Source: Tribonema minus | Taxonomy: Eukaryota; Sar; Xanthophyceae; Tribonematales; Tribonemataceae | Length of the DNA: 64,000 nt | NCBI GenBank assembly: GCA_017506865.1 | Contig: JAFCMP010000539.1 | Location: forward strand, 585,045 to 649,044 | Reading direction: 5' to 3' | Translations under genes and position numbers: made by a program | Part shown: one piece after another, positions 300 through 63,228 of the stretch | Numbering within the stretch: the first letter of the stretch is position 1 | Layout of the letters: the number at the start of each line of letters is the position of its first letter | Notes under the pieces: generated by a model | Database searches by the model: none | The model's input: only the letters and a program-made list of their open reading frames with translations | Told to the model about the DNA's origin: nothing

Positions 300-560
300 A
301 ACAGCTGACGCTGAATCCGCAATGGCTCCTCAAAGCCGAACTCCTTGCTCCGTGGCCTACATGATGGTCGCCGCTAGCTTGGCCTCCTTACAATTGCGCA
401 CGTCATCGGTGGCTTGATATTCGTCTCTTTTGAATCACAAACAAACACCAAGTACCTGTCGCTGAATGGGTGACGGCTCCTTGTAGCCGAGCTCCTCATG
501 CATCCACGATGATCGCCGCCAGGTTGCCTCGTCCCAGCTGCACACCTCATTGGTGGCATG
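300..560 (-). repeat. Decayed copies of the 3' end of Prp28 exon 4
   Basis: Minus-strand sequence at about 470-545 repeats the end of exon 4 (real copy 648-740): [11 protein letters not shown] followed by a GT is still readable, but the upstream part is scrambled. A weaker third copy lies at about 300-385. Together with the real exon end they form a short array within the intron that follows the Q-motif exon. Confidence 0.7.
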
Positions 561-647
561 ATATTTCTTCACCCGATTTCAGAGAGTCACAGCAATGTAA
601 ACAGGACACACCTAAACAAGCACAAAAACCGCCTCAACACCACAAAC

Positions 648-3600
648 CTGTCGCTGAATGGGCGACGGCTCCTTGTAGCCGAGCTCTTCAATTGCCTCCA
701 TGATAGTCGCCGCCAGCTTGCCCTCCTCCCAGTTGCGCAGCGGCAGCGGCGCCTTGCCGCCCTTGACGCGTATGTCGAAGTCCTCGCGGAAGATGCGCCA
801 GTCGCGCTCGGCCATCTCTGACAGGGGCTTCTCGCTCCAGTGCGCGCCGCGCAGGCCTGCAGCGGTAAAGTTCAAGTTCAAATTGAAGATGTGAGCATTG
901 TGACTACTAGGGGCATGATGAAGATGCGGCAGCGGCTTCTCGCTCCAGTGCGCGCCGCGCAGGCCTGCAGCGGTGAAGTTCAAGTTCAAATTGAAGATGT
1001 GAGCAATGTGACTACTAGGGGCGTGATGAAGATGCGGCCGCGGCTTCTCGCTCCAGTGCGCGCCGCGCAGGCCTGCAGCGGTGAAGTTCAAGTTAAAACT
1101 GAAGATGTGAACAATGTGATTGGAGCCTCAAGCTGAGGATGCGGAAGATGCGCCAGTCGCGGTCCGCCATCTCCGACAGGGGCTTCTCGCTCCAGAGCGC
1201 GCTACGCAGGCCTGTGGCGGCAATGTCCAATTTGAAGTTGACGATGAAAAAAACAACGCTCCGCCACAAAAGCGGCGAGCGACGCACTGGGGTGGATGTC
1301 TGTCTTGTAGTTCAGAACTGGACTGCCGCTGCAAGGTGCTTAATAAGCAGCACGTAGCTCAAGGCGCTTCGCACCACGCTGCAAACACAGCTCGTCACAC
1401 GTGCCGGTCGACGTGTGCTCCATGCCGACCGCCTCTGGAGCGGCCTGCTGCTGGGCACACGTTCAAGTTCACACTGCAATCGCCAAAAAATGATGCGCTG
1501 CCAGGTACTGCAAGCTCCTCAAAACAGTGCGCGTTCATGTAACTCAGAAATCGCTACGCTCCCACCACTCCAGCAGATCGTCGCACGCACCGGTTGATGC
1601 GCGCTCTGAGCCCACTGTCTCTGAGGCGGCCTGCCGGCGGGTGCGTTGAAGTTACACTTCAACCCGCCAAAAGAAGATGCGCTGCGAGGCACCGCAAGCT
1701 CTTCGAGAACAGTACGTGACTCAAAGAGGCGCTAGACAACGCAGTTTACACTGCTTGTAGACTAAGCCCATCGTCGCACGCACCCTAGGCACAGCAAGCT
1801 CTTCGAGAACAGTACGTGATTCAAAGAGGCGCTAAATTATGCAGTTTACACTGCTTGTAAGCCCATCGCCGCACACACCGATCGATGCGCGCTCTGAGCC
1901 GACCGCCTCTGAGGCGGCCTGCTGGCGGGCGCGTTGAAGATACACTTCATTGTTGAAGTTACACTTCAACCCGCCAAAAGAAGATGCGCTGCTAGGCACT
2001 GCAAGCTCTTGGAGAACAGTACATGATTCAGAGAGGCCCTGGACTACGCAGCTCACGCTGCTTGAACAGGTCATCGCACGCACCGATCGATGCGCGCTCT
2101 GAGCCGACCGCCTCGGTGGCGGCCTGCTGGCGGGCGCGTTGAAGCTCGCGGGCGCGCGCGCGCTCGCGATCTCGCCTGTCAGCCTCGCTCAGCCCCTGCT
2201 CCAGCTCCAGCCGCCGCTGCTCCTCCTGCCAATCCCAATTAAGCAGGGAGGGAGGGGGGGGGGGGGGGGGGAGGGGCAGTAGGCATCAGCACTGCAAAAA
2301 CAAGGCAAATGTAATGGGTCAGGGCAGACCAACAGGGAGAACGCGCGAAGGGGGGACGGGGGACTGGGGGTGGGGGGGGGGGGGGGCGCATCAGCACGTC
2401 AGCAGACACAAGGCAAACTGTTCAAGCGGCAACTGGCGACCAGCGTGATGAAATTGGCAGCTCCGATGCATTGAGTGCATGATGGAGCGCATTTGTCAGA
2501 GGCTCGGGCGTTACAACAGAGTGTGCGCAAGTCTGCAGAGCTGGCACGCGCGCACGCGGCCACACAAGCAGCTTCATACTTGAACTTTAGGCACCACACG
2601 CGCGCACCTGCCGTTTCGCCATGGGTTTTGAGAACCGCGCTGCCCCTTGCGCTGCTCGCGCAGGTCGATGCCCGCAATGTAGCTACTTCACTTGAAGTTT
2701 ATGCAAAAGCGCACCAACCACTACCACTACCGCTGCTTCGCCACAACCGCATCGAGAGAGAAACTTCACACTTGAACTTGCGCACCTGGCCGCTGCATCG
2801 CCCCTGAATGCATGAGGCTAGGCGACAAAGAAGAGGGACCATGCAACATCAAACTTGAACTGGATGAAAGCGCACCTGGCGCTTCGCCATGAGCGCGTTC
2901 AAGAAGGCGCTGTTCTTGCGCTGCTTGCGCATGTCGATGCCCGCAATGTAGCTACTTCAACATAAACTTCAATGTAACTTTGACGTCACACGCACACACA
3001 ACTCCGAACTTGAACTTGAACTACGCACCTGTCGCTTCGCCATGAGCGCGTTCAGGAAGGCGCTGTCCTTGCGCTGCTCGCGCATGTCGATGCCCGCAAT
3101 GTAGCCGCGCCCATACAGCGCGTTGATCTGCGCCTTCTGCTGGTACAGCGGGTTGTAGTCCTGGCTCGTGTCATCGCCCGCCTCCCAGTCAAACTGGAAA
3201 ACCGCCTTGAACTTGTCCGCCGCCTTGACGACGCGCTTGGTGTTCTTCTGGCCGCCCAGGTACGACTTGCGGATCATCTCCAGCTCGCGCTCCTGCGCGC
3301 CAGCAGTTATGGCAGTTTCAGGATGTGACATGTTGGCAGTGTGCGACATTTCCCTTTAATTGCTGTTTTGTTGTTTCTGAAGAAATTGCCGCGCTGTATT
3401 TATAATCACTTGCGGATTAGGTCCAGCTCGCGCTCCTGCGACGAGACAATTACGGTAGTTTCCGGTTATGACATGATCGGCATTGTCCGACATTGCCTTC
3501 CTAATGTGTTGTTTCTGAATAATTGCCTAATAAAATCACTTGCGGATCATCTCCAGCTCGCGCTCATGCGTCAGCAAGGTGCGCGCATGGCGGCGGTTTC

Positions 3601-11192: not shown

Positions 11193-11223
<31 letters not shown>

Positions 11224-20340: not shown

Positions 20341-20344
20341 CTAC

Positions 20345-20600
20345 CCGCCCGCCTTTCGATGCACAACGCTCAGCAGCACGCGTGCGCGCAGCGTCCCACT
20401 GCACCTCGTCGACGATGACAGCCAGCGCCGCCACTCGCGCCTAGCGAAGGCCGCAGCCCTAGCCTCACGGTGCCGGGGGGGGGGGCGGGCGGTCGGGGGC
20501 ATGGGCGGGGTGGGTGGGTAAGTATCAGTCACCGGCCCGCCTTGCGCAGGTCCACAACGCTCAGCGGCGCGCGTGCGTCCCACTCCACGCGCGCGTCGCC
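20345..20600 (-). repeat. Decayed copy of the last AMSH exon tail
   Basis: Plus-strand 20347-20425 (CCCGCCTTTCGATGCACAAC and onward) mirrors the end of the last AMSH exon at 20536-20600 with substitutions and small indels. So the terminal exon edge, which has no splice donor, was also duplicated outward. Confidence 0.65.
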
Positions 20601-23320
20601 GTATATGGTGACATCCGTGGGGTGCGGGTGGAACCCCTTCAGGCGGCAGTCGAGGATGAGGCGCAGTCCGTGCGGCGCCTCGAGACGGAAGACGCCGACG
20701 CGCTTGGCGGCGTCGGTTGGCGCGATCACTACGGCGACAGCCTCGGGGAGCATGATCTGGTAGCCGGCGTGCGTGTGGAGGTCCACGCTGCTCATGAAGC
20801 AGCTGCGCAATGCAGCGGTGGGCGGGGGGGGGGGGGGGGGGGGGGGATGGGGGTTAATGAGGGTAGGTAAGTAGGTCAGCACATGATTTTCGTGCAATGA
20901 TGGCAGCGACAGCCTCGGGCAGCATGAAGTGGTAGCAAGCAATGGTGAGGGGGTCCACGCTGCTGATGAAGCAGCTGTGCAATGCGCAGAGGGGGCGGGG
21001 GTGAGGAGTGAGTAGGCACGCAGCATTGATGGCGGCAATGTGACGATGGCCGTTGCCCCAAGCAGCATGACCTGGTATGTGTGTAGCCTGCGTGCACGTG
21101 AACGTCCGTGCTGCGCATGAAATAGCTGCGCAGTGCACAGAGAGGGGGGTAAAGGGTGTGATTAGGTGTGAGGGTAGGGATGCAGTAAAGCAATGGCGGT
21201 ATTGTGCGTGGCGGCAGCACCGCTCAACTCCAGATTTGACACATGGCGGCCTCCGGAGCGGCATGACCTGGTAGGTGCCTCGATTACAGCAGCAAACTGA
21301 AACTGCACGATGTACAAAAAAACTGTAGCACGTGCGCTCAAGCACCAGAACAGCTGGACGCTCAGGTCGATGCCGCGGCAGTATGAGCTGCCAGCAGTGT
21401 ACGAACATGCTGCTGAGCGGTGCTGATGATTGCGCCAAGGCAGCGCTCAGTGTGATGGGTGCGATTGAGATGGCCCGGCACTCACTCTTGCCGCGGATGC
21501 GTGTGTATCCAGCCCAGCGTGATGAGCTTGAACTCGAGCATGTAGCTGAAGACCAGCTCCTCGCCGGTGGCGGTACAACTGTCGCTGGAGCCCGTCTGCA
21601 GGCGGAGACAGGCGACGCATACTGCTGAGTGTGGCAGACATTGGGGGTACGCAAAGTGCCAGCGGCAGGCGGAGACAGGCGACGAATACTGCTGAGTGTG
21701 GCAGACACTGGGGGTATGCAAAGTGCCAGCGGCAGGCCTGTTTGGCGCTGCCTGCATCACGTCACATGATCATGCGCGTGGCTGAGCGGTGACACACTGC
21801 GCAATAGCAAACTTCAACGTCAACATTGTTTTCACTCATGGTGGCAGTACGGGAGAAGTGCCACAGCTTTCGCAAGCCTCAGAGATGTGGCCACACGTGT
21901 CAGTGTCTTGTGTGAATGCGCGGTAGCAGAGTGTTGAGAGATCTGGGTATCTGCCACTTGTTGAAGTGGATGCCTGCTTTTTGCGAGCGCCACATTGGCA
22001 ATAATTTCCAATGTTCAATGCAAGTCAGCCAGAGTCAGCTCCAAAACTGCACATGTCGATTGTGCCTGTGCACTGGCAGAGCAAGCCAACATGAGCTGAC
22101 CTCACATAAGTGGCTCGGTATTATAAGAGTTCAGTGAACTCTGCATGGGCGCTTTTGCAGGCCAAAAGGAGGCATTAACTGGGAGCAGACGTTATGCTTG
22201 CGGTCAGTGGGCGACTTTCACGCAACCGGCGCATCTGCCTGGTCAATCGTTCAACGTTGGCGACGCCTGAGTGAGGACAACACCAGCTTGGAGCACGCCT
22301 TTCACACCATCACAACGAACCAAACACATCACACATACTAGCAGCACACCTTCTTCAGACCATCACACCACAACAAAAACATCACAAATACTAGCCTCAC
22401 ACCTTCTTCATACCATCACATAAAACCAAACACACAACACGCACAGGAGCGTCACTTGCCTGCGGCGGTACGATGAGCGTTGTCATCGTGAGCGCGTCGC
22501 CGTTCAACACGCGCCCCGCCAGTATCCCGCACGTCTCGATGCCGTCGCGGCCGCGCTCCGTGTTCGGCTGCGCGATCGCCTCGAACCGCGCCACCAGAGA
22601 CGCCGGCAGAATCAGTTTCCGCAACCGATGCGTGGGCGTCCGCCGCCTCGGCGTAACAGCTGCTGCCGCGGGGGTATAGGCATTTGAGCCCCCGCCTCGG
22701 ACCTGCGGGTAGGCGAGGTCGTCGCCGCCCTGCGCGCGCCGCTGCTGACCTGGCGTGAGAGACAGCGTGCTGAGCATCGATGCCAGGTCCACGTTGCGGC
22801 CGTTGCTCTGCAGCAGGGCGTCATCGGGCACCGCGGCTGCCGACAGGGGCGGCGCCCCCGCCGCCGCCGCTGCTGCCGGTGCGGACGTCTGTGACTCGCG
22901 CGCAGGCGTGAAGGCTCCGTCTAGCTCTGCCGCCAGTTGCATCTCCTCTAGCAGAGCGTCTTCATCGTCCAGTCGCTGCGCCACCGCCTCGAGCTTGGGC
23001 ATGGCGGCTTTCGCTTCCCTGCCGAGGCGGGCCCTCTCTCTGGCATACTGCGGAGTGCTGTAGGCGTTGTGTCTTGGCAGCCGCTCCAGCACCATGATCA
23101 TGTAGCGCTTGTAGAAGGTGTAGGCGTAAAGAGGGGCGTCCTCGTCAGCTGCCATCTCGTAGTACGCGTCGGCCTGCGCCAGCAGCTGTCGGGTCGTATT
23201 GAGGTAGACCTCGAACCGCACAGTGTTCAGGACGGCGGCGCATTCGCAGTCCTTCTGCAGCAGCCGCCTCGTGGGGCCCATCGTGCTGCCACCGCTGCTG
23301 CTCATGTGCAGAGAGCTCAT
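20529..23320 (-). CDS. AMSH/STAMBP-type JAMM deubiquitinase
   Basis: Zinc-dependent deubiquitinase that in animals and plants trims K63 chains at endosomes alongside ESCRT. Three exons: 22460-23320, 21486-21595 and 20529-20802, junction phases 0 and 2, 414 residues, close to the family length. The N-terminus is the MIT-like dimer domain (YAYTFYKRYMIMVLERLPRH). The catalytic part includes GIETCGILAG, TGSSDSCTATGEE, LGWIHTHP and FMSSVDLHTHAGYQIMLPEA, so the catalytic Glu and the H-x-H-x(n)-S-x2-D zinc set are complete but split over three exons. It ends in LKGFHPHP and VVDLRKAGR. Intron 1 appears to start with GC (CAG|GCAAGT), a known minor donor class. Intron 2 and the intron 1 side of exon 2 hold exon-edge copies. 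Start chosen at MSSLHMSSSGG. Divergent from the J-protein gene. Identity firm. Confidence 0.93.
20745..21290 (-). repeat. Copies of the 5' edge of AMSH exon 3 with its acceptor
   Basis: The exon start coding SCFMSSVDLHTHAGYQIMLP (real copy 20745-20818) recurs at about 20895-20985, 21040-21140 and, weakest, 21195-21275. Spacing is about 145-155 bases. Decay rises with distance from the true exon: the second copy still reads SCFISSVDPLTIACYHFMLP. Confidence 0.85.
20824..20846 (-). promoter_or_regulatory. C23 run (minus strand) before the acceptor of AMSH exon 3
   Basis: A plus-strand G23 run reads as C23 in the transcript. It ends 19 bases upstream of the deduced acceptor (CAG at 20805-20803). 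The likely role is a polypyrimidine tract. Confidence 0.5.
21590..21745 (-). repeat. Two-and-a-half tandem copies at the acceptor of AMSH exon 2
   Basis: A unit of about 64 bases (CAGGCGGAGACAGGCGACG, then ATACTGCTGAGTGTGGCAGAC, shown split) is repeated directly at about 21600-21662 and 21664-21726. A further partial copy abuts the exon. The junction AG is present in each. Confidence 0.8.
22290..22450. repeat. Minisatellite in AMSH intron 1 next to the GC donor
   Basis: About three copies of a 55-60 base unit built from ACACCTTCTTCA, ACCATCACA and AACCAAACACATCAC words lie directly downstream of the donor of exon 1. They do not resemble exon sequence. Confidence 0.7.
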
Positions 23321-23734: not shown

Positions 23735-26700
23735 ATGGCGGAGGGCGAGGATGTGCTCTCCCTCATGCTATACACTGTGCTGGTGTATCCGGTCTGCAAG
23801 TGGATCATGGGCTCAAAGCGCTTCGGCAAGCGGTCGGTGTGGTATGCCATGGCTCTTCTGGCAGCGGTGGCTGCGGTGCACATAGCTTGGGAGTGGCGGG
23901 AGCGCGGGCCCAATCACTATCAGCTGCTGGGGGTGGGAAGGGAGGCAACGCCGCTGGAGATAAAGAAGGCGTACAAGAGGGCGAGTCTGGAGCTGCACCC
24001 GGACAAGAATCCGAGTCCCGAGGCAGTGGACCAGTTTGCTGAGGTAAGCCATGTGTTGTCATATTTTTTAGCACCTCACTTCGTGTTTTCTTAATCATCA
24101 CGCCAGCCAATTTATGATGACTGCAAGATGATTGTCTGTAGAAATCAAAGAAACGAGTGAGCCAAAGTCAAAAAGAACACAGTTCATGACCTATGGGTGC
24201 GCGAGTCTGCGAAGGCCTGATTGGCATCATGCGCTCTGCCTGTGACCTCTTGGTTTGTGCAATCGTGCAAGCTTGAAGACAATTGTACCACGCCAACAGT
24301 GCGCATAGAAAACTGTGCGCATCGACATTTGACGAGATGTCATGCATGAGCAACAAGCAGTCAATTTGAGATGCATTCTGTGACTGGTGCTCTAGCTGGG
24401 AACAGTTGCAAGTGCTCAACTTGATTGTCGGTGTCAACATAATGCATGGTAAAGCCTAATGCACAGTTGATAGCTGCGTGCATCGCATGGTGCGCATGGG
24501 TGCAGCCGATACCTCATATGTCTTGTGCAAAGGACTCCTTTGTGGTAAGTTGACACTCAGCGTCATCTCAACTCTCATCATGAAGCTGAGATCATGAGTT
24601 CGTTCCTGGCTCTATAACGCACAAAGGCTAGTGAGGGCAAGGTTGCCGCTTCCATCAATGCCTGTTTTGTTGCATTCTTGTTGGACACAGTGTGTGTGTT
24701 GCACACTCTTGGTGCTGTGCGGATTGCGTGCTGTGGTGCAACAGCATGCAGGCTGTTTGTGTGGCAGGCAAACGTGGATTTTGTGTTTGTGCTCAGATCA
24801 GTGGCAACAAAACTCAGCTACAGACAGCAGTTCAGATCACTGAGTTCCACAGATATCGTCAGTGAGCGCCCCGCTTGTTTCGCGACTGCTGCCAGGGTAG
24901 AGGAGATGCCACTTCGTGATGTACAGGCGCACTGGGAATCTGACGGTCTACACTTTTCAACTATGCCTACTAAATTGGCGTCATCAAGATATCGCTGATA
25001 ACTTGCAGTGATTGTATGAATCACCACCTTGAACTGACTTTCACTGTGGTCTACTCACTGACACGCTGCTCAATTTTGCAGCCACCATGTGGTCACGGGG
25101 TATCCATCACTCGTAAAGTTGTCAAAAGTGCCTTAATTAGGCAAAAACATTACCCGACAGAGGAAGCACAGACAGACTTCTACTGTACTCATTGGTGCTT
25201 CTGTGCCTTGGTATACACACGGGAGAACCACAGCGACGCAATTCACACTCATCATCGATGCCGGTACGCCTCTGCACGCTAACCCCCGCCACTGCCGCCG
25301 CCGCCGCCGCGCTGCAGATGAAGGACGCGTACGAGGTCCTCATGGACCAGGAGTTCCGCGACATCTACAACAAGCTCGGGCCGGAGGCGATCCGCACGAA
25401 GCAGCGCATGGACGAGACGGAGCTGCTGCTGGCGATAGGCGCGCAGTACGTCGTCTGGGGCGTCATCGCGTACCTGCTCACCATGGGCGCCGCGGGCGCC
25501 GCCGCGCGCGCCGCCGTCTTCACGGGCGAGATCGCCATGATCGTGCTCGAGATCACGAACATATCTACAGGGCAGGGCAGCTCGCTGCTGCCGCCGTGGT
25601 TCGCGCCTAGCGTGACGGATCACGAGGTGATCTGGCTCATGCGCGCGGCGTTCCCGGCGTACCTGACGGGCGCGCGCGCGCTGTGCGCGCACCGGCACGT
25701 GGACGTCGGCGCGCAGACGCGCGACCTGCTCGCCGCGCTGCAGAAGGGGCACGCGGAGCTGCTGCTCAAGCTGCAGCTGCTGCAGACGGGTGAGTGCGCG
25801 GCGGGGGATGCGCGTTTGCTGGCTCGTATGCAGTACTGGTAGCGCTGCGATTTATAGGATCTCAAGCCCGTAGAGTGATTGCTGCCAGCGGCGCTGCAGA
25901 TGGGGCGCTGTTCACTCTGCAGCTGCCGCGGACGGGCGAGTGTGCTGCTTGGAGTGCGTGTGTGTGGGTGCGGTACTTATGTGTGCTGGATTGTACGCAA
26001 TAATGGAGCAGTAGTGCCAACTTCAAATGCATTGTTGAGACTGCTGCCAACGGCGCTGCACAAGGGACATGCGGAGTTGCTGCTCAAGCTGCAGCTATAG
26101 ACGAGTACCTGCGCTCGTGCTGGTTGGTGTGCGGGGGGGAAAGGGGGGATGGGTGTATTGCTCGAAGCACTGTGCACAACTGACAGGGGGGGTGTTTTGC
26201 GGTTGTCGAGTTCTGATTTGTTGTCGTAATCGCTACAAGTGGCGCTGCAGAAGATGTGCGCTGAGCTGCTGCTCATGCAGGCATAAGCTACTGTAGGCCG
26301 CAGTTCGCAGCTGACAGCAGAAGTTCAACTTTGTGAAGGTGTGCGCTTGAGACATGCAGTTGTGGATGGTGCTGTATCAGCGCATGCCGAGCAGCTGCTC
26401 GTGCCGTAGCTGCTGCAGAGCACATGCGTGCATTGCTTCTTTGAAAGCACAAAACTTCAAGTGGTCTCCTATAGAGTCTGGCAGCTGTAGTGATGATAGC
26501 GCAGCGGATGCTCTTCGGTTTCCGACCCAGATCACCAGAGCCACTGCTGTAGCATTCACACCCGTGGCAATCCCGTTCTGATAGCTGGTGGGTAATTCAA
26601 CATGTACCTCAACTTCACCTCAACACTTTTCTAAACACCGATCACCCCCCCGGTCAGCGCCACCGCCCGCCACCTGACTCCAATACAGCACATCTCCTGC

Positions 26701-27547
26701 AACTCTGCTCACTTGCAGCGCTACCGCCACAACCTAGCCCAAATTCCACAAATACTCCTGCCATCCTGCAGAAATACGGGACCTGTCGGCGGCGGCAGCG
26801 GCGCGGGGGGGCAGCGGCAACCCGCGCCTGGCGGCGGCGGCGGCGGGGGCGGACAAGGCGGTTACGGTTTCGGCGAAACAGTCGCCGGCGGCGATGGTGC
26901 GGGAGCTGGAGCAGCGTATGAAGGAGCACTCGCAGAACATTGAGCTGCTGGCGACGCCGATACAGGAGCCCGTCAAGGGGCGCTCGAACTTCTGGTGGAT
27001 CCTGGGCGCCTACGTGGTCTTCTGTGAGTGCACGTTCAGTACATTGTGTATGTAGGCATCGCACTGAAGTACATTGCGGTACTGTTGCGATACTGTATCG
27101 CACTGAAGTACATTGCGGTACTGTTGCGATACTGTGGTCGGACTTCTGGTGGATCCTGGGCACCTATGGGGTCTTGTGTGAGTGCTCGCGAATGTGTGTA
27201 TCGCAGTGAAGTACATTGCGATACTGTAGTCGGACTTCTGGTGGATTCTGTGTGGTCTTCTGTGAGTGCATGCATATGCATCACAGTGAAGTTCAACATC
27301 TCGATCCTGTGCCAGGAAGTAGCTGTGGAATTTACCTGTGATTGTAGGCGTGGCGGCTGCTGTCAGTGTGGTCATCTGTTAGTGCATGCATGCGCATGTA
27401 TCACAGTGAAGTACGTTGTGATACTGTGCAGGGAGTGGTGGCATTCCCACAAGCGCAGGAGCTGCTGGTTGTGCTGTTGTCAATGCAAGCGCTCGGGGAC
27501 GTCCGCAGTTTCAAGCATCGTGGCCGCAAATGTGGTGTTGTGCTTAG
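23735..27547 (+). CDS. Membrane-anchored J-domain (DnaJ/Hsp40) protein
   Basis: Hsp70 co-chaperone, probably in the ER or another inner membrane. Four exons: 23735-24043, 25318-25789, 26772-27023 and 27432-27547 (last one tentative), phases 0, 1 and 1, 382 residues. Residues 5-25 and 37-54 are hydrophobic. The J domain follows from about 60 (NHYQLLGVGREATPLEIKKA) with HPD at 88-90 and continues across the first intron into MKDAYEVLMDQEFRDIYNKL. Two further membrane segments lie in exon 2 (AQYVVWGVIAYLLTMGAA; AVFTGEIAMIVLEIT), then VDVGAQTRDLLAALQKGHAE. Exon 3 is an Ala-rich linker, a short charged helix and a last hydrophobic stretch (NFWWILGAYVVF). This layout matches a family of small membrane J-proteins in plants and protists whose client is unknown to me. 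Exon 4 rests only on frame and splice sites. Confidence 0.85.
24044..25317 (+). other. Intron 1 of the J-protein gene
   Basis: A 1274-base intron, GTAAGC to CAG, splitting the J domain after the helix carrying HPD. A GCCGCC run precedes the acceptor. I see no nested gene and no exon-edge copies here. Confidence 0.6.
25741..26430 (+). repeat. Copies of the 3' edge of J-protein exon 2
   Basis: The exon end coding QKGHAELLLKLQLLQT plus donor (real copy 25741-25798) recurs at about 25886-25945, 26046-26110, 26236-26290 and perhaps 26385-26430, about 150-190 bases apart. The third still reads HKGHAELLLKLQL. Only the nearest copies keep a GT-like donor. Confidence 0.8.
26985..27400 (+). repeat. 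Copies of the 3' edge of J-protein exon 3
   Basis: The stretch TTCTGGTGGATCCTGGG, then the donor GTGAGTG (real copy 26989-27030) recurs at about 27137-27185 and 27228-27270, with a faint copy near 27365-27385. In between, a 41-base unit with GTACATTGCGGTACTGTTGC is repeated directly at 27068-27130. Confidence 0.85.
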
Positions 27548-30220: not shown

Positions 30221-30361
30221 GTGAGACACGATCACACGTTCACAACTGAAGAAGCCTACCTGAGCGTGCCACGCAGTGCCAGACTCCGTTCCACGGCTGT
30301 GCGCCGCAGCATCCTAGAAACGCGCGCTCGTGGGGGTCCCATTGACGACTCCGGCCAGCTC

Positions 30362-38028: not shown

Positions 38029-38059
38029 TCATGGGAGGACTCCGTGCTTGGTGGCGCTC

Positions 38060-38315
38060 CGCACCACCCGCGAGTCTGGCTGGCCCTGCGCGACAGCGCC
38101 CGCTTTGCGCTTCCTGATCGTGACGCCACACAAGTCTGGCCGGCCCTGCGGGACAGCGCCCGCATTGCGCTCCCTAGTCGCGGCGCCGCGCGAGTTGGGC
38201 CGGCCCTGCGCGACAGCGCCCGCATTGCGCTTCCTGATCGCGACGCCGCGCGAGTCTGGCCTGATCGCGGCGCCGCGCGAGTCTGGCCGGCCCTGAGCGA
38301 CAGCGCCCGCTTTGC
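38060..38315 (-). repeat. 60-base coding minisatellite in the tail of copy C
   Basis: About four copies of a 60-base unit (GGCCGGCCCTGCGCGACAGC, then the CGCTTCCTGATCGCGACGCC stretch) encode a 20-residue repeat rich in Arg, Ala and Gly. A shortened unit lies near 38258-38283. Absent from copies A and B. Confidence 0.85.
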
Positions 38316-38584
38316 GCTGTGTAGGCATGGCGACGCACTCGGGCAGGGGGCACTCTGGGCGCTGGCTGCTTCCGCCGCTCCCGCCGCTCTCCTGCCACCT
38401 TTTGAGGCACCGTGGGTGGCACCTGTGGCCGCACGCAATCGTGGTGGTCTCCGTCCTTGGGGCGCAAGGCAGTCTGCACACGGCACAGGCGTTGTATGAA
38501 ATCGCCCCGCCTTGGCCCTTGGCGTTGGGGTCGCGGGGCTTGGCGATGAGGACCAGCTTACGCCACTCGGCCAATGGACCAATG

Positions 38585-39015
38585 GGATCCGCTCCGCTCA
38601 TCCGCGACCCTGAAAGCCAAGAAGCAACCGAGGCCCTTGTCCATAGTGAAGTCTCCAGGGCAGAACTGGTATTGAAGATGGGTTGTGACAGGCTGTAGCC
38701 CTATGTCAGGGGCATCTGCTGACTACTCAGTTGTTGAACTTGATGTTAATCCTGATGTGATTTTGTACTTCAACGGTGATATTCTTACTTCAACTTCATG
38801 CTAACTTCAACTGCCATATCACTGCTCAACATGCAATAGCACGGCTCCACCCGTCTCAACTTCAACAACCAATAGCTCTTCTGGTGCGTCTGAGTGAGGC
38901 CAACAACCTACTATCATCAAACCTCCACAGTTTGAGTGTCTTGACTGACCTCACTATAGCATAAGCGCTCGGTTGCTTTTTGGGTTTCAGGGTCGCGGAT
39001 GAGCGGAGCGGATCC
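38585..39015. mobile_element. MITE-like insertion with 69-base inverted repeats
   Basis: The arms 38585-38653 and 38947-39015 are reverse complements of each other with few mismatches, starting GGATCCGCTCCGCTCATCCG in both directions. They flank about 290 bases of low-GC DNA without a coding frame. The insert sits in copy C exactly between GNMA and EWRKLVL, which are adjacent in copies A and B. GGCC borders both sides and may be a short target duplication. No transposase, so non-autonomous if it is a transposon. Confidence 0.7.
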
Positions 39016-39315
39016 TTGGCCATGTTGCCGCTTGCGCTGATGCGGTCGTACGTGTTGCCCGCTGTGTATTCGGGGCTGGTTATGCGCATGCCATTCTTCT
39101 TGGTGCCCTCGAACATCCACGAGCACGCGTAGAAGCCGCAGGTGCTCGGCGCGATGGTTCTGTAGCAAATGGGGCATTTGCAGTCCGACGCGTCGGTGTC
39201 ACGGTCGTCGAGACTCAGTGTGAAGGCGCCCATGCCCACCTGGTGGATCACCGGCTTGTTGCGCGCTGGGCAGCGTGGCTGGTGGCACGTACCCTCTATG
39301 TTGATCCCACCGCAC

Positions 39316-40097
39316 GCAACACGCCAGTCGGGCGCGTCCTCAGTCAACTTGATGTGCTCGACGGATCTGGTGCGGGACACGTCAGCGAAGAGTACTCCGC
39401 CAATCGCGCCGCCACCGCCGCCTGCTCTGAGGCGCAAAATGAAGTGGACAACACTCTCGTGCTTAATCCCGTAGTCCGACAGTAGGCAGCCCATCGCCAG
39501 CTGCTTGCCTTCAAACAAAAGACTCAGCTGCTTGACTGGAAGGCGCGTAACGCCTTCGATGGCCTCCTTGAGGAAGTCGACTGTGTCCGAGCAGGACAGA
39601 CCTTCCACAGTGAATATCCGCTGTGTCGACACGTTTTGCACGAAAAATTGAGTGCTGGTGTCCGGTGGCACTGCATGCAGCGTCATGGTGGCTGCCAGGC
39701 TCTGCAGCAACACGCCAGTGGGGCGCGTCCTCAGTCAACTTGATGTGCTCGACGGATCTGGTGCGGGACACGTCAGCGAAGAGTACTCCGCCAATCGCGC
39801 CGCCACCGCCGCCTGCTCTGAGGCGCAAAATGAAGTGGACAACACTCTCGTGCTTAATCCCGTAGTCCGACAGTAGGCAGCCCATCGCCAGCTGCTTGCC
39901 TTCAAACAAAAGACTCAGCTGCTTGACTGGAAGGCGCGTAACGCCTTCGATGGCCTCCTTGAGGAAGTCGACTGTGTCCGAGCAGGACAGACCTTCCACA
40001 GTGAATATCCGCTGTGTCGACACGTTTTGCACGAAAAATTGAGTGCTGGTGTCCGGTGGCACTGCATGCAGCGTCATGGTGGCTGCCAGGCTCTGCA
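39316..40097. repeat. 391-base direct duplication inside copy C
   Basis: Two adjacent copies, 39316-39706 and 39707-40097, differ at only one base that I can find (CAGTCGGG against CAGTGGGG). They cover the third ubiquitin-like module and the start of the cysteine-rich domain. The near identity means a very recent event or an assembly artefact. Confidence 0.9.
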
Positions 40098-40587
40098 GCT
40101 TCCTCAGCTGCTTGCGCCGGCACAGCTTCGTTCCACCCGCCATGAGCATTATGTCGCCGCTGCTGTCGAGACCCAGACCTGTGGCGACTGCTGTAAGGAC
40201 GTCAGCAGCAGTGGCGGTCGGCTTCTGCGTCAGGTGCAGGGTGTGCTGCTTGCTGTTGCCGAGGTTCACCTCAACGCTGAGCTTGATGTGCTCTGGAAGC
40301 ACTTGAGCCGTGAAGCGAGGATGGATTTCGCCTGTTGCAGACTCGTCAAGCTCGGGGACCAGGTCGTTGACTGTCCCAGAGTCAGCCAAGAGTAGGCCTC
40401 GATACCACAGGTCGACTAGAGTGCGACCCTTTGAAGCAAAATAGCGCTTCACATCTTTTACAGTGTCTGTGGTCCATATTTGTGTGGAGCCCACGCCCTG
40501 GTAGCAGCTCAGCGGGAACTGCTGCACGTCTGAAAAAGTTGGCCAAAGGCCTACCTCGACGAAGCGCAGCGTGGCCGTGGTGCTCAT

Positions 40588-41732
40588 GGCTGCAGAATGA
40601 CGACGCAGAAGCGCTGCAGGAGTGTGATCGAAGAGATCAACAACACTAACAGACCTGTTTTGCCTCCCGCCAATTTTTGATATTTTTTTTTTTACTTCGA
40701 AGGCCGACACACTCTTTGTGAGCAAGCTGCCGTTGAGCACTGATACCATGATCAGTTATCATGCAGCCTCTCAGGACATGACAACATGAATTGCTCTTCT
40801 GCATCAACTGTTGCGATCAGCATATACTCGACGCATTTCATATGCCCGTCGCTATTGCTTCAATCAAAAGGCACAAGCCCACAGAGGGTAGCAGCAATGA
40901 AGGCACACCCCAGCTTTGCCCGGCAAATATGCGCAATTGGAGCATGCCAACATCACATATGTCAGAGTTCGTCGTGGCAATAATGGTCAACTGTAAATGA
41001 CAATCAGCACAACACATATGCGCTAGGCAGCACACAGTGCTATTGAAAGTTTACCGGCAGACGCCAGCGTGACGCGAGTGCTGCCTTCGATACAGCCTCG
41101 TCAACCGCCCTCATTGCTAAAGGCATGGGTGGGCACAACCGCCAGCAACGCGACAGAAGAAAAGAATGAGCCGCACTTGACCACCACCCGCACCCCCCCC
41201 CCCTCGCCCCCATGTCTGACCCCTTCACCCCCCTGCTCGCCCCCTCAAGTTCGCTCCTGTAGTTGGTCTCAACGACCAGCCCGATACCCCCACAAAATCT
41301 TGCGCGCTGACCCCCCAAACAACACAGCAACCACGGCTCCCAGACGCTCCCTCACAGAGAAGGTCAACCCAGGGCGCTCTGACATATCAGAGCGCCGCAC
41401 ACAACAGGAACGCTTGCGGCCATCTGCCCCCCCCCGCACGCTACAAGGAAAGCCCCCCATCTCCCCCCCCCCCCCCCCCCCCCAAGCCCCCCACGCTACG
41501 AGGACATGGGGATTTCTTCATAGGCGGGCTGACAAAGCCACCCAAGGCCCATCCCTCCCCCTTTTCTGACCCCCATGATCCTCCTGTGGGAGCTCCATCG
41601 GCAGTCGACCATGGTGGTGGCGTTGATGCAGCAGCTGCTTTTGGTCGGAGAGCCATGGTGCTTGGCGGCCACTCTGGTTGTGAAGAAAAGCGGAAGGTGG
41701 TACGGCTTTTACGGTGCGCGCCAGCGCGGCGG
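40588..41732. other. Intergenic region between the RING cluster and the sterol methyltransferase
   Basis: Holds a T11 run near 40683-40693 and a C21 run at 41463-41483 within a C-rich stretch. It should contain the 3' UTR of the sterol methyltransferase. No further gene seen. Confidence 0.5.
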
Positions 41733-44700
41733 TTACTTCTTGCGGGCCACAAAGAAGTACGACGGCGTGAAGATCTGCCGCCTGCCGCCGTCCACGAGGT
41801 CGATGGCGGTCGCGTTGAGCAGCGCTGACACCTGCAATGTGACATGACACATCGCCAAATAATAGTGTAGTGGTGAGTCGAGAGAGGTGAGCTATGCAAT
41901 GTGCCCAAGTGAGCTGATGAGGAGACAGTGGAGCTCTTTGCTGTGCCCATTGAGCAACATCGTCAGGGGTCTAGTTGAGCAGCGCAGACACCTGCAGTGT
42001 GACACAAGGCATCGGCAAATAGTGTAGTGATGAGTGCAGACACTTCACTATTTGCCGTGCCACTTGAGCTATAGGGCGAGCGCACTGGTGCCATGTGGCA
42101 TCCCCGATTGAGCTTTGAATCATGCCAGAGTGTGGCGTGAGACCCTGAGCCTGGTAGCACGTCAACATTCACGCAGCAGCTGATGCTGGTCGTTCCCAAA
42201 AGCTCTGCTGCCGGCCAACCTTGCGTGCCACACACCAATGGTAAGAGTATGTGTGCGTACAGTGCAGGCCCCACACCATGCCAATAATCGGTACTGCTGC
42301 AGTCAAATGGAACTGGTGCGTCGCTGAGGCCAGCTCCCGCACGGCGTCGTGCTAGGCCCACATGGTACCCTCAGGCGGAGGGGTCACCACGCATCTTCGC
42401 AGCCAGCAAAGCAATGATAGTTCATTTGTCAAGTTGAAGAGGAGCGTCACCTGCGTGGAGCCGCGCGGCGCGACGCGCGGCACCTCCAGCGTGAACACGA
42501 AAGTAATCAACTACATACATACAGTACATTTTATTCATAAGAGTATGTAGTCTAGTGCTCGATATCCATACAGTGAGTAGGTTATGTGACACCGGAGAAA
42601 AGGAGTGTCACCTGCGTGGAGCCGTGTGGCGCGACGCGCAGCGTCTCCAGCGTGAAGACGAGCGCATGCGTGCACATACAGTATATAGTACTCCCATTAG
42701 ACTTGATACTTTTTTACAGCGCATAGTAAGATTTATGGCCCTCCGGGTTCATCTGTCACGTTGCAGCGGAGAGTCACCTGCGTGGAGCCGCACGGCGCGA
42801 CGCGAAGCGACTCCAGCGTGAAGACGCAGTACGTGAATACATCCGTTTTCATTCATACAGTATGTAGTACTCCCACTGGACGTGATACTTCTACAAAGTT
42901 ATAGAAATTATAGCCCTCCAGGTTCGAGTTGGAGAGGAGCGTCACCTGCGTGGAGCCGCGCGGCGCGACGCACAGCGTCTCCAGCGTGAAGATGCAGTAC
43001 ATAGGTGAATACATACAGTATACAGTCCTCCCATTGGACTTGATACTTCTACAGCACATAGCAAGTTTTATAACCCTCGAGGTTCATCTGTCAAGTTGAA
43101 GAGGAGAGTCACCTGCGTGGAGCCGCGCGGCGCGACGCGCAGTGTCTCCAGCGTGAAGACGAGCGCGTGCGTGCACGCGCGGCCGAAGCGCGTCATGCGG
43201 AAACCGCTGAGCGTCATCGAACCCCCCAGCGTTGCGTACCACGGGACCTGGTGGGGCGAGTGCACCTCGCGGTTGGCGTCGTAGTGGTCCAGAACTTCAA
43301 ATCCTGCGGCCTGCACATGCGTTGAGAAGGAATGAGTTGAAGAAGGGACTCAGTTCATGATGTTTCGATTTAGAGGCGATCAAGAAGGGTTTGGGTATTG
43401 GAAGTTTTTTTAGTGCAGTGGTCGTCATTTTGTGCTGCAAACGGCCTTGAGGTCTGGTCGCTGACCTCAGCCCTAGCTTTGTCGCAGTACTGCAAGAAGC
43501 GGCCTACACAGGAGCTTCATGCATGTAACTTCAACTCTGGTACAAGAAACAAGGTATGCTGTTGAGCATGGCGAAAGTTTCAAAAACTTCAACTTCCGCA
43601 CCGCACATCAACAGCTCCCCAACTCAGCAAAGAGTCGCACAATATCCTCAACCAGTGATATGTACTTGCACAACGTGTGTTATGATTGCAAAGCAGCGGT
43701 TCACAAGCATACAGTACCTGAAAGTGTTGGCAACACTCGCCCCAATAGCAGCAGCCTATATCCTTTGTGTGTACGGTCACAGGCACACAAACGCACTCCC
43801 ACAACCTGCCCCTAAAAAGGCACAACACCGTCCGTGATGTATGCATTCATGTTGCCGCAACCCAAACCCTGACCCTAAGCACTCAAAGCAAAGCGCCTTG
43901 AGAGCAGCGACCACATCCGTGGCGTGTACACTCAACAAAGCGCACTTTTGAAAAGATGCCCACAAACTTCACCTCATCTACGACAACCTGAAATCCGCGA
44001 GGTGTACACTCATACACCCTAACTCTAACCCTAACTTTGTTCCTAATTCCAACCCTACAGTACTTCTAGCACTCGATTCTAACCCCAATCCTATTTTCAA
44101 GCCCTAGAAATGCTCACCTCAAGAGCAGCGACCACATCCTCAGGGTACACGAGCGTGGGCAGCCCGTTGCCGACCTCAATGCCCTCCTTAATGCGCACGT
44201 GGTCCTTGTCCTCGGGGTCAAACTTGCCGGGCAGCACCACCCACTCGTACCCCGCAAAGCAGCAGCCAGGCTTCAGTACGCGCGCCACTTCGCTGAAGCA
44301 CTGGACCTGAGCGTTGATGCAGGAGTGTGTGGCAGTGCTCAGCAATGGGTATGTATGAATGTGATGAGACGGCACGAGCGCCACTTCGCTGAAGCACTGG
44401 ACGTGATAAGTGTTGTCGCAGAGTGCGTGGCATTGTTCAGCGCGGGCACTGCATGCAATGACACACGCAAGTTGTGCTATTGAACCGCTGTCGAATGTCG
44501 TCAAAACTACACGCTGGCTTCAACCGTGTTGGGTCGTGTGCATATCCATTAAATGGCACAAACCAGGTGTTCTATCTGATATCATTCAATCCAAAGCCGC
44601 AACAGAGTACGCCCACCCTGCTTCAGCATCTATGCAACATTGCCACAGCACCAGACCTTAGTAATGTGGATAAAACGGCACGGACAAAACGAAGACCGCC

Positions 44701-47700
44701 ACTGCTGCGCGGAGGTTGTTCTTTGGTAATGCCTCTGAGCTGCGTTTGAATGCAGCATGTGGCAGTTGCGTGCTCATTGCCGCGTTGCAGGCTTGACAGT
44801 TCCGGCAGTTGCACTTGCCGGCAGAGAGACTGCAATGCATTCACTTTGGACTTGACGCAGCAGAGTGCCAACGCTGCAAGCATTTTGGAAGTAGATACCA
44901 AGTCGCAGAGTGAGGTTGCGCTCCACGCATTCAGGACCATGGTCAGGGTTTGTTAACCCCAACCCAAACCTTAATCATGGGGTTAGATTGCGTCACACAT
45001 TCAGGAGTATGAATGGGGTTTGCCAACGCCAACTCAAAGCTTTACCATAGGGTTACTCTAAACCCCCTCATCCTGACACTAGATTGTCGCTGTCGCTCAC
45101 ACACACCATGCATCCAGTTTTGGCTCTTGCTGCATCAGTGGCCGGTTTGGGAGCTGCAACATGACTTTTAGAGCCAAGGCTTCAAGAGTATTGCTTCCCA
45201 GAAAGCCATGAATAAGAGCCATTGTGCAGCTGCCGCATACCACTGCAAACAGCGCAAAAGCAATCTCAGCCATTATCCTCTAGTATATGCCGCCTGACAT
45301 ACAACAGATCGTGTACTGGCAAGTGACTTTTACTGACCTTGTCTGGGCTATGGCAGGTTGCCTCAATCGCATATGCAGCATCAAGGGTGGCATCCTCAAC
45401 ATTGCGAACTTCACACGGACACACCCAAACTGTCGCCCCCCATACATATTCTGCCTGACAACTAGTCAGTGACAAGCTATGTCGCACAACGATGCACTGA
45501 AAAGTGACTTCCACTGACCTTGTCTGGGCTATGGCAGGTCGCCTCAATCGCGTACGCAGCGTTATTCAGCTGACACAGATCACTGCAACCCGTGATCTAC
45601 GTATATGCCGCCTGACAAACAACAGATCAAGTACAGAGAGGTGACTTTTACTCACCTTGTCTGGGCTATGGCAGGTTGCCTCAATTGCGTACGCAGCGTC
45701 AAAGGTGGCATCCTCGAAGGGCTGCTTTTGGAAGTCCCCCTGTATGAGCTTACACAAGTCCGCCAGCCCCTTCCTCTCATTGTACTTGTTGCCAACGTTG
45801 ACCTGCAAGCAAAGGTCCAGGGCAAGAAAGTCAGTGATCAACTGTCGCAGCTGCGTTCTCTGCTTGTAACAGCCAGATGTTGGCTTCATGCAATTGTATT
45901 CTTGCACTAGTGAGGCCATGGGTGGGTTCTTGTGCTACAGCTTGCGAATTCAGACAAGTACACCTGTGTGTAAGGGCTCCAGATAAGCAGGCACGTAGGT
46001 ACCACTTGACTCACGCTCGACTACCGCTGGTGACCGCGACATGAAGAACAGGATGTTTCAGGGCGCAAATAGACATGTTTAAGTCCCTAAACCTAACCCT
46101 AGCCATATGAAGCACACCTGCTCTTGGCGTGTTTTGCGCCTTCGTGTATCGTACCTTGAGTGTATGATATCACCAAGCAACTACATGATGTAAGAACTTC
46201 ATTTCATCTGCAAGATATTCGTGATATACTGCTGCAGCACCACCGTCACACCTCACATCAAATCCAAGCACACAACAGCTCAACACGTATCGCAAAGGAT
46301 GTGTGCTTCGTAGAAAACATAACATGCATGACGAGGTTCATATAGACGCTTCCGTCCTACTGCAGGGGTGGTGGCAGTTGCAGTTGCAGTAGAATTTATC
46401 ACACATCAATTATATCAGCAGGGGGATTTCAGGTACTCTTTTCAGTCAAGCACAACACACTGCAGCCATTAATATGCGGAGGCTGCTTGGGAAGAAATCA
46501 GGTTCAAATGCGCACAGCGTCAGTGTTGTCATGTCAACATTCAAAAAATAGTGAGCACTTGCAGCTGAATTGGTGCAATGTTGTCACTGATTCAAAATTG
46601 TGAGCACTTGCACCTGGTTCAGTGCAACACTGCGTCTGTGTAACATCTTCAAACTGCCCTTGTCAGAGGCATGAGTCATTTGTGTTCTATCTGAAAATTG
46701 CAGTTTGTGGTTTGGTTGCGCTGCTCGAGTGTTGCTGCGACACAGCTCTGCGCAGTCGCATAACGCATTATCAAAGATAATGCGGCGACCGCGGCTATTG
46801 GTGGAAGGCAATCAATTTGACGGCCAACTACACCCTGTCACCTAGAGCTCTACCAACTTTTGATTCGTTTCCATAATGCCATCACAGCAGATTCCAGTTG
46901 TACTACGCCCAGTACAAAGTGATTGCAGAGCCTGTGCTAGCCAGTGTGGCAGGGGCGTCAGCGTCAAACTTCAAAATATTTCAAACTTCAACTATGTCAA
47001 AACTTCAAGATTTCATACCTAGGCGGCAGTTGGTGTTTAATCAAATAATGTGAACTGGAGATGTACGCGTTAGGGCTCCAAAGCTGCACCCCGTGCCCGC
47101 ACTGTAATTCCTGGCATTCTGTATTTGTTGCGCACTGTGAAACTTGCACATACCTGGCATCTCTACAAGTACTTCGTACCGTTGTAATGAACTGTCCATG
47201 CATGTGCCGCTGAATTGGCACCACAATGCATGCGCCATTGATGCGACACCCAAGGCAATAGTGCCTCTTTCAGAACACACCTAGTGCTGTGGTTCAGCAG
47301 CAAACCACAAGAAGACATAAAAGTCTCACTGAAGCATGTTAGCAACTTTATTGGACTTGATGCCTTTGAGGTTGGTGGTGTGCATTCAACACAAACCTCA
47401 AAGATGTTTTGTCCATTACACATATGCAAAGTTGTTGGTTTTCACTACGTACATGCATTTCCTGGACAACAGTTGAGCCATTGAGAAACGCACGCCCTGC
47501 AGCACATGATCCCCAACGTCCTCCTGTAATGTTTGATAGTGATCCCATCGATGTGCGCGCCGCTGATCAGGCACAAGTGCCGCATGCGCCCCCCCACCCC
47601 GCACCCGACGTCCAGCACGCGCATCCCCGCAATACCTTGCTATACATACCCCATGAATGATCATACTTATCATACTTCATGCAGTTTCGCACCTGGTACT

Positions 47701-49566
47701 GGTTGATAGTAATCCCGTCAATGCTTGCGCCGCTGAACTGGCACATGTGCCGCATCGGTCCCCCCACCCCGCACCCCACATCCAGCACACGCATCCCCGG
47801 CTTCATCCCCAGGCGCGAGCACAGGTGGTACTCCGCGCGCTTAATGCTCTCCATGAAGCCCTCGCCCACAACGCGCGGCGCAAAGTGGAAGCTCGGCCCC
47901 CACCCCCACTCGTAGAAGTCCGTCACGAGGTTGTAGAACGAGTTGATCATCTTCTGGTACTCGCTCTGGCGCTTGGCAATGGACTCCTCTGTGGTGATGG
48001 CGCCCGTGGCCTTGCGCGCGCCCGCGAAGAGGCCCTCGTAGCCGTCGATGCAGTCCTTGACCTCGTCGCGCTGGAGCACGGAGTCCGAGTTGCTGAGCAT
48101 CGACAGGGACCCCTGGATCGTGTCGTTGAAGTCGTTGGAGTCGCGCGCCATTTGCTGCAAGAACGGTATTTAATTTCGCGAAAACAACGCAGGACTGACA
48201 ACTTTAGAGCGTGAAATGGTGGTGCAAGGTCTGCTGGCATGCTGTTGTGATGCAGTCCTTGACTTTGTCGCGTGCGAGAACTAAGTCCGAGTTGCTGAGC
48301 GTCGAGAGCGAGCCCTGGATAGTGTCGTTGAAGTCGTTGGAGTCGCGCGCCACCTGCTGCGGATGCGGTTTTTGAAATACAAAGCGGGACTGACAGACTT
48401 CAGAGGGAGCGTTGGTGTTGGTACGAGAGCTCCTCACAAATACAGTTAGTTGACCTCAACGCACACAAGGACCGAAATCAGGTTGCTGCACGTTGACACC
48501 GAAGACCTGGAATGAACAGGTCAAGTGTTTGACAACATGTGCCATTTTGCTGTGCGCATGGCACCTGGTGGAGAATGCAATGGTGCAGCCATGTTGGAAG
48601 CCATTCTCTAAGTAAGGTGGGCATCACCACTGCAATGGCATCCAAGGTGTCACCAAGAGGCAAGTAGGTACCAGTGTGTGGCACACTACGTTTCAATTGA
48701 TTCTTGACACTTGTTACAATATAGAATAAGCACAGGGCAGCGGCAGCATCGACGTGCACGCCTGGCCAGTTTGTTCTTTGTTCTGACTGAAACACTGGTG
48801 TTACCCTTGCTGGACTGTGCTCAAAATGTGCAGCATTGCACAGCTTGCACGCGTGCCATGCCTCCAATTGCGGCTATCAGCGCACTACAAGTTGTCGCCC
48901 TCCATGTGCCTTTTGCGCCCTGACGGCACAAGTCATTCGCGCTGCTGTACACCATAATGGGCAGCTTGGAACCTTTTCTTTTGTTAAACCCCCTTGAGTT
49001 CAAAAGGGCTTTTAAAAAATGGACGGAGCATGATATTGCAGCTGCACTGTGAATCAGACTCAGCGCACAGCATACACTGATGTACGGTTTGGTGCATCGA
49101 AATGGGCCAACGGTGGCGGTGAACCGAATAGCGGAGTTTAACGTTGGCGATTATGTGGCTGTCAGAAATCAGTGTGAGTGATGGCTAGGAGTATCAGAAC
49201 GGGCACAGCACAGCACGCGCGCCAGGGCGCCAGACTAATATCAGCAGCCACGGCGCAGACCGAGATCTTCGTGCTCGAAAATTGGGCCGGTGGCTCTGTA
49301 AGTTCCTCGACCATCAAGTGCACAGGCTGACGATAGCGGCCGTCAACAATACGGCCCTGCACTGACGAGTGTCACATATTTTGAGAGCTGCACGCACATG
49401 ATGGGCCAGCAAGTGGACTTACGATCTTTTTCGCCCGTCGCATCTTGAGCACAACTGCGAAAGTCACAACGGCAGCTGCAGCGAGTGAAGACTCCACTGG
49501 CCGCTTTGATACCTCCGCCGACACCCTATCCAGCGCCCTCTCCAGCCTCTCATTGCGTAGCGCCAT
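41733..49566 (-). CDS. Sterol C24-methyltransferase (SMT/ERG6 type)
   Basis: Transfers a methyl group from SAM to C24 of the sterol side chain; a membrane-associated ER enzyme that sets the 24-alkyl sterols of algae and plants. Six minus-strand exons: 49423-49566, 47693-48154, 45656-45802, 44118-44306, 43113-43310 and 41733-41831, all phase 0, 412 residues. Residues 27-41 are one hydrophobic anchor. Then come the SMT block YNLVTDFYEWGWGPSFHFAP, the SAM motif LDVGCGVGGP (172-181), YAIEATCHSPDK, RVLKPGCCFAGYEWVV, IEVGNGLP and AGFEVLD, with a late YFFVARKK. The pieces match the family without gaps. Start MALRNERLER was preferred over a Met 11 codons upstream. Five introns total far more than the coding length, and almost every junction is flanked by copies of the exon edge. 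Whether it makes 24-methyl or 24-ethyl sterols cannot be told. Identity firm. Confidence 0.95.
41810..42035 (-). repeat. Two copies of the 5' edge of sterol methyltransferase exon 6
   Basis: The acceptor and first codons (GACACCTGCA-TGTGACA on the plus strand) at 41812-41875 recur at about 41970-42033, including the intron-side words CAAATA and TAGTGTAGT-GTGAG. The period is about 158 bases. Confidence 0.85.
42421..43165 (-). repeat. Five copies of the 3' edge of sterol methyltransferase exon 5, each with an intact donor
   Basis: The exon end coding LETLRVAPRGSTQ and its donor (CAG|GTGAC) is real at 43091-43165. It recurs at about 42921-42996, 42765-42827, 42600-42672 and 42421-42500, spaced about 160-170 bases. 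All five keep the CAG|GTGAC donor, and about 50 bases of coding sequence are well preserved. Repeated intron words (CATACAGTATGTAGT, CTTGATACTTCTACA) lie between them. Confidence 0.95.
43316..44117 (-). other. Intron 4 of the sterol methyltransferase with telomere-like words
   Basis: Between exons 5 and 4 no exon copies are seen. At 44016-44060 there are CCCTAACTCTAACCCTAACT-type words, and at 43857-43880 CCCAAACCCTGACCCTAA, resembling degenerate telomeric repeats. Confidence 0.55.
44280..44415 (-). repeat. Two copies of the 5' edge of sterol methyltransferase exon 4
   Basis: GCGCCACTTCGCTGAAGCAC, with the acceptor side following, occurs at 44281-44309 (real) and again at about 44378-44403 in the intron. 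The copy retains VQCFSEVA-like coding sense but its acceptor is altered. Confidence 0.8.
44416..45300 (-). other. Intron 3 of the sterol methyltransferase, inner part
   Basis: No exon copies in this inner portion. Two short blocks about 70 bases apart (44945-44985 and 45014-45057) share the plan GGGTTTG-AACCCCAACCCAAA and AGGGTTA-like words, again resembling decayed telomeric sequence. Confidence 0.5.
45310..45720 (-). repeat. Three copies of the 3' edge of sterol methyltransferase exon 3
   Basis: The exon end coding AYAIEATCHSPDK and its donor (real at 45640-45720) recurs at about 45495-45562 and 45315-45400, about 160-180 bases apart. The intron copies read GTCAGT where the real donor is GTGAGT. 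The intronic flank (GTGCACTG- and ACAACAGATC words) is repeated too. Confidence 0.9.
45803..47537 (-). other. Intron 2 of the sterol methyltransferase, inner part
   Basis: Low-GC intron DNA without domains on either strand. Contains a CCTAAACCTAACCCTAGCC telomere-like stretch at 46086-46104 and a direct repeat with TGTGAGCACTTGCA words at about 46550-46615. Confidence 0.5.
47538..47800 (-). repeat. Two copies of the 3' edge of sterol methyltransferase exon 2
   Basis: The coding stretch RVLDVGCGVGGPMRHMCQF to ITINQYQ plus donor (real at 47693-47800) is repeated at about 47538-47640, about 157 bases away, with roughly one change in ten. The copy still contains the SAM-binding motif. Confidence 0.9.
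48050..48365 (-). repeat. Two copies of the 5' edge of sterol methyltransferase exon 2
   Basis: The exon start coding ARDSNDFNDTIQGSLSMLSN and its acceptor (real at 48054-48157) recurs at about 48252-48360, about 200 bases into intron 1. The copy reads ARDSNDFNDTIQGSLSTLSN and keeps a usable-looking CAG. Confidence 0.9.
48366..49422 (-). other. Intron 1 of the sterol methyltransferase, remainder
   Basis: No gene or exon-like sequence seen apart from the edge copy noted separately. Confidence 0.5.
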
Positions 49567-63227: not shown

Positions 63228-63228
63228 C

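Follow-up and report, generated by a model that had tools for sequence, protein, structure and literature searches.

Decayed copies of exon edges recur in introns of Tribonema minus and may record intron lengthening

The window analysed here is a 64,000-nucleotide stretch of DNA from the yellow-green alga Tribonema minus (Xanthophyceae; assembly of 158.18 Mb in 554 contigs), covering positions 585045-649044, the terminal part of a 649,044-base contig. It carries genes for Prp28, AMSH, a J-protein and a sterol methyltransferase, whose introns had been predicted, across positions 300 to 48365, to be bordered by arrays of decayed copies of the adjoining exon edge. Such arrays were present in all four named genes, but they did not extend through the whole interval: the stretches at 4-20 kb and 28-36 kb were without arrays, with a local copy in 0-7% of tiles.

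For Prp28, a spliced aligner written for the present analysis was used with P0001, an RNA-derived Trinity protein (isoform label i6, representing 5 member sequences) that is 99% identical to the draft translation. The resulting model has ten exons and nine GT-AG introns of 477-1590 bp, with four exons inside the window and six past its start in the neighbouring stretch L002. The predicted exon-edge copies were borne out, as local repeats linked edge to copy at 9 of 18 edges, namely the acceptors of introns 1, 3, 4, 6 and 9 and the donors of introns 2, 3, 4 and 5; intron 8 also held a copy of exon 9 sequence. On the minus strand of the window, the acceptor array of intron 1 (3265..3570) holds the exon 2 head (about 28 bp) twice, together with the intron tail, and live exon 2 (3029..3292) is followed by the donor array of intron 2 (2602..3105), in which the exon 2 tail (77 bp) is copied together with the donor. 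The tail and donor of live exon 3 (2084..2225) occur in three copies in the intron 3 donor array (1375..2144), and the acceptor array of the same intron (786..1246) includes a 108-bp unit present in 2.8 copies at 96% identity. The tail of live exon 4 (648..856) is found twice in the intron 4 donor array (305..756), all live exons being those of the spliced model. The 3' end of the Prp28 CDS is copied in downstream non-coding DNA (L002 3474-3822), with no splice site, and an interstitial TTAGGG tract stands directly after a copy of exon 5. Short interstitial tracts of this kind are frequent, at L002 8799-8866 and in the random loci L004, L009, L011 and L012.

The AMSH model was built with P0241 from a brown-alga relative; its upstream exons were unreliable (internal stop), so the model was used for the last exon only (20802..20544). 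As predicted, the head of this exon is copied twice in the acceptor array of the last intron (20734..21137, minus strand), and the CDS 3' end is copied in downstream non-coding sequence (20343..20577, minus strand), where no splice site is involved. In the J-protein gene, whose exon ends were judged by eye without a gene model, two exon tails on the plus strand end at about 25789 and about 27024, and both bear the expected donor arrays, with two decayed copies (25726..26096) and three (26984..27427), respectively. Self-comparison of the sterol methyltransferase gene, modelled with the T. minus protein P0121, likewise revealed copies at three donor and three acceptor edges, all on the minus strand. 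Exon 48154..47693 has an acceptor copy (48047..48405) and a donor-side copy (47526..47799) that stops 3 bp short of the splice site; donor arrays belong to exons 45802..45656 (45279..45715) and 43310..43113 (42420..43176, four copies), and acceptor copies to exon 44306..44118 (44278..44441) and the last exon, 41831..41736 (41808..42035). No copy of the sterol methyltransferase CDS 3' end was seen, unlike those of Prp28 and AMSH, giving two copied CDS 3' ends among three.

Other features lie in the window and the neighbouring loci. A cluster of ubiquitin-plus-RING paralogues occupies 30256-40755, with a ubiquitin domain in both scanned frames and a RING domain in one, and includes a 391-bp direct duplication of 99.7% identity (39316-40099), which may have arisen recently or may stem from the assembly. 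Long frames at 51474-63900 form a mobile-element-like stretch, where two of the four scanned frames have a C-5 cytosine DNA methylase domain (PF00145, E ~1e-18), one of them with a protease-like DTGAS motif seen by eye; judged from these motifs, the stretch is possibly a retroelement that encodes its own DNA methyltransferase. Satellite-like blocks of ~131-bp units lie about 3 kb apart in L003 (1805-2501 and 4817-5513). The 8-mer TTGAAGTT/AACTTCAA occurs in both orientations, with examples at 1232, 1646, 2965 and 28061; it was counted 117 times in the window and L002-L015, 31 times the order-1 expectation, some of the occurrences falling in the L003 satellite.

An independent gene sample was obtained from the kinesin family, which was searched across the whole genome (132 matches). 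Eight kinesin genes, picked for compactness and exon number, were modelled with a profile built from nine further kinesin loci in the T. minus genome; one of the eight, L020, was picked partly because the match list hinted at a copy. Together with Prp28 and sterol methyltransferase they make a sample of ten genes, AMSH and the J-protein standing outside it. Before counting, introns 1 and 2 of sterol methyltransferase, where the first exons were misplaced, and 14 introns of doubtful model in the kinesin genes were excluded, and 48 of the 64 modelled introns were kept. The sample thus comprises 48 introns of ten genes in one genome, most of the models being without RNA support.

To evaluate exon edges in this sample, each 50-bp exon end was compared by alignment with the intron next to it and scored against dinucleotide shuffles (p<1e-3). 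A decayed copy was found at 36 of 94 exon edges, and copies occurred on both sides of introns, as had been predicted, at 17/47 donors and 19/47 acceptors. When exon ends were set against introns of other genes, only 2/376 matched, and the exon-middle control gave an intron copy in 1/36. The kinesin genes alone had copies at 21/68 edges (counted from the edge-test rows). Genes differed strongly, from 1/20 edges in L018-L020 to 7/8 in L017, and L020 had no copy at any of its four edges despite the hint in the match list. Edge arrays were present in 28 of 48 introns (13 acceptor only, 7 donor only, 8 both) and made up about one third of the sampled intron sequence; arrays of all kinds covered 0.37 of it.

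Local copies were also counted in the random loci L003-L015, one of which (L011) overlaps kinesin locus L021. A direct copy was found for 21% of tiles and an inverted one for 3%, satellite locus L003 included. In L009, L012 and L014, which by eye seem to hold one gene with WD repeats, one with an RRM and two more, local copies touched 11 of 14 hand-picked coding-like segments. The share of tiles with a copy was 1-4% in L006, L008, L010 and L013, and 14-42% in L003, L004, L005, L007 and L015, where no multi-exon gene was recognised. Edge copies thus recur in sampled genes and random loci, in agreement with the predicted recurrence in unrelated genes, and the exon-edge copy observation is confirmed and extended. 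Most copies are unlikely to be assembly artefacts because their divergence is too high.

We collected 81 copies, 60 of which span the splice junction; 77 lie closer to their own edge, and the remaining four were counted near mid-intron. The exon part of the 36 edge arrays reaches 21-125 bp inside the exon, and the exon-side end is often common to the copies within one array. Spacing between copies had a median of 137 bp, within the anticipated 60-200 bases, but its measured range was broader (56-361 bp). At the cut-off used for counting spacing, 33 edges had a copy and 19 had two or more; among these 19, the nearest copy was the best preserved at 12 edges against 7.4 expected, so that the predicted better preservation of nearest copies is a weak trend only. 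Of 35 nearest copies, 13 abut the live edge head to tail and 22 are separated from it by a non-aligning spacer of 20-164 bp. Such a spacer was present for 13 of 14 nearest copies in pairs with at least 85% identity, compared with 0-73% of such young copies under simulated tandem duplication. Since most young copies carry a non-aligning spacer, plain head-to-tail duplication is an incomplete explanation. Copy divergence peaked at K 0.2-0.3. In four of five fresh pairs, a microhomology sample of only that size, the breakpoints overlapped by -1 to 6 bp. No extended element was detected at the copy boundaries, and a dispersed element at the breakpoints was rejected, as TTGAAGTT-family motifs stood at 9/77 copy boundaries compared with 5.4% of random windows.

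Comparison of 62 copies with the live exon gave 310 differences in 3236 bp, at frequencies of 0.067, 0.056 and 0.164 at codon positions 1, 2 and 3, respectively; positions 1 and 2 would record decay of the copy, and position 3 would add the silent changes of the exon. Among 22 indels in copies, 21 were not multiples of three, and the copies are therefore dead. GT or AG was intact in 50 of 60 junction-spanning copies, where 47.0 would be expected from the identity of the remaining sequence, and no selection for or against copy splice sites was detected in these 60. Copies thus decay neutrally beside a constrained exon. The idea that the arrays plant spare splice sites is literally true, given the retained GT and AG, but the number retained is what neutral decay would leave. 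The copies contain only part of an exon, and their indels nearly always break the frame. Mutually exclusive or alternative exons, which would be duplicates of a whole exon with an unbroken frame and a splice site at either end, were accordingly ruled out.

Intron length was correlated with duplicated bases (rho 0.72, p 7e-9, n=48) and with the duplicated fraction (rho 0.52), in support of the predicted lengthening of introns. The suggested link to AGGT-type intron gain was not supported, given that nearly all copies sit closer to their own edge, that their exon-side ends lie well inside exons and that no new intron was made, as far as the models show. Existing introns seem to lengthen, in a process unlike classical AGGT intron gain.

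The prediction that arrays act at existing junctions was examined by counting arrays that include an exon edge. These were 36 of 45 merged arrays (80%; gene bootstrap 66-91%), 21/28 among kinesin merged arrays, and 36/49 unmerged arrays (36/50 in the count matched to unmerged simulations). The edge share was 0.70-0.88 over E cut-offs from 1e-2 to 1e-9, with arrays merged or unmerged and the low-complexity filter on or off, and edge arrays comprised 13,932 of 15,828 array bp. Plain tile coverage was flat with distance from the edge and near zero 100-120 bp inside exons, so by this measure, which counted against the prediction, copies were no commoner near splice sites. Flat coverage was nevertheless dropped as proof of no edge preference, because simulated even placement lowers coverage at edges: a duplication internal to the intron leaves two members there, and an edge-crossing one leaves only one. 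All simulations included exon constraint and small indels; deletion turnover, bursts or random insertions were added in particular runs. Without bias, mean edge fractions were 0.34-0.43 and 0.38-0.51 in two run sets for unmerged arrays, and 0.33-0.40, 0.35-0.62 and 0.34-0.56 in three run sets for merged arrays; the mean of 0.62 (best replicate 0.68) required coverage twice that of the real introns. When an edge bias was imposed, the means were 0.60 (3x), 0.70 (6x) and 0.74 (10x) for merged arrays, even the ten-fold bias thus falling short of the observed share, and in other run sets 0.62-0.65 (5x, merged) and 0.71 (3x, unmerged). Unbiased runs at similar coverage had younger arrays (89-96% identity) than the real introns (81/77%). 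The models may be incomplete and cannot span all regimes of intron turnover, and every run departed from the real introns in some feature. With this caution, exon edges look truly preferred by the arrays, since unbiased simulations stayed below the observed 0.80.

Based on the directly observed presence of copies, their edge preference relative to simulated even placement, their neutral decay and the intron-length correlation, it seems somewhat more likely than not that T. minus introns grow largely by recurrent local copying whose source lies preferentially at exon-intron edges. One event would copy 21-125 bp of the exon end with the splice signal and some intron, and leave the copy about 60-360 bp into the intron. 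An edge-straddling copy would leave the protein unchanged if the outermost splice sites stay in use, and some arrays may later expand as ordinary head-to-tail repeats. The molecular step is most likely a template switch, during repair or replication, to adjacent sequence at exon edges. The spacers suggest that the intron flank of the copy is lost early, or that a fragment is inserted instead of a head-to-tail duplication. Used acceptors lie downstream of their copies and used donors upstream of theirs, so the site chosen must be the one closest to the opposite end of the exon, and exon definition would let the cell tolerate intact decoy sites. More tentatively, exon edges may be hotspots of local copying, probably tied to splicing or transcription, that form the main route of intron growth, with the spliceosome ignoring the decoy arrays. 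A splice junction is not strictly needed, because Prp28 and AMSH have copies of the CDS 3' end; the near absence of repeats around apparently intronless window genes points the opposite way. Local repeats in L003 (satellite), L004 and L005 also count against copying at edges.

Splicing would be irrelevant if duplications arose in GC-rich exons generally, with exon-internal ones purged by selection and edge-straddling ones surviving. We consider this unlikely, although GC content is higher in exons than in introns (0.650 versus 0.557) and in interior arrays than in non-array intron (0.589 versus 0.551), long frames of the window contain tandem repeats (unit length 60 bp or 105/210 bp), and the two copied CDS 3' ends agree with it. 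However, repeats are near absent around the window genes at 4-20 kb and 28-36 kb, which appear intronless from their long frames and whose CDS ends would be expected to show copies, although such ends are few.

We give still less credence to neutral local tandem duplication spread evenly, with edges seeming favoured since the conserved exon keeps edge-spanning copies recognisable longer. The exon part of copies is indeed more alike (0.916/0.895) than the intron part (0.825/0.861), coverage falls to near zero inside exons at the scale of the repeat unit, and the edge fraction rises with simulated turnover. Yet no unbiased run reached 0.80, the top replicate at similar coverage being 0.62, and arrays with at least 85% identity, among which interior ones would not be concealed by decay, were at edges in 6/6 cases, though six are few, compared with 36-54% in unbiased runs. 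Maintenance of copies by gene conversion from the exon or by use as alternative splice sites is improbable: in L017 intron 3 the exon part of some copies has kept 97-100% identity next to intron sequence that has diverged, the copies vary more unevenly in their differences than expected (overdispersion; chi2 111, 61 df) and the Prp28 protein bears its isoform label and five members, but frame-breaking indels and neutral splice-site decay oppose it, and the contrast in copy-copy flanks that resembles conversion was rejected as evidence because neutral simulations give an equal one.

Recurrent local copying from exon edges would make the arrays a readable record of intron lengthening that extends over about one third of the sampled intron sequence. 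Many introns also set up a natural competition in splice choice, with one or more near-perfect donors or acceptors standing 56-361 nt away from the used site or from the neighbouring copy. Genuine targeting of edges would tie local mutation to splicing or transcription.

Minisatellite-like intron arrays have units of tens to hundreds of bp in several copies. The Tribonema arrays resemble them in unit size, in copy number and, in part, in regular period, but are anchored at exon edges, and 22/35 nearest copies have a non-aligning spacer. Introner elements are a single sequence family spread over many genes. A lineage-wide effect on introns is shared with them, whereas Tribonema exon edges match their own introns and rarely others; the 2/376 cross-gene matches and the lack of an extended element at copy boundaries rule introners out. 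Among the open-licence literature listed, we found no account, for Tribonema or any other organism, in which exon-edge arrays are a habit of the whole genome. Tandem duplication is an established route to new introns (PMC3443670; PMC2891723, Drosophila cases). As in the Drosophila cases (PMC2891723), splice sites in Tribonema are furnished by exon sequence that was duplicated locally; there, both ends of the new intron come from one duplicated segment, whereas 77/81 Tribonema copies lie nearer their own edge. In the potato RdRp gene, a tandem duplication crossing the intron-exon boundary made a new intron (Ma, Lan and Niu 2016, PMC4974935). Local duplication likewise crosses the boundary in Tribonema and brings splice signals along, but the potato case is one gene and one intron-creating event, whereas in Tribonema many genes are involved and existing introns are lengthened.
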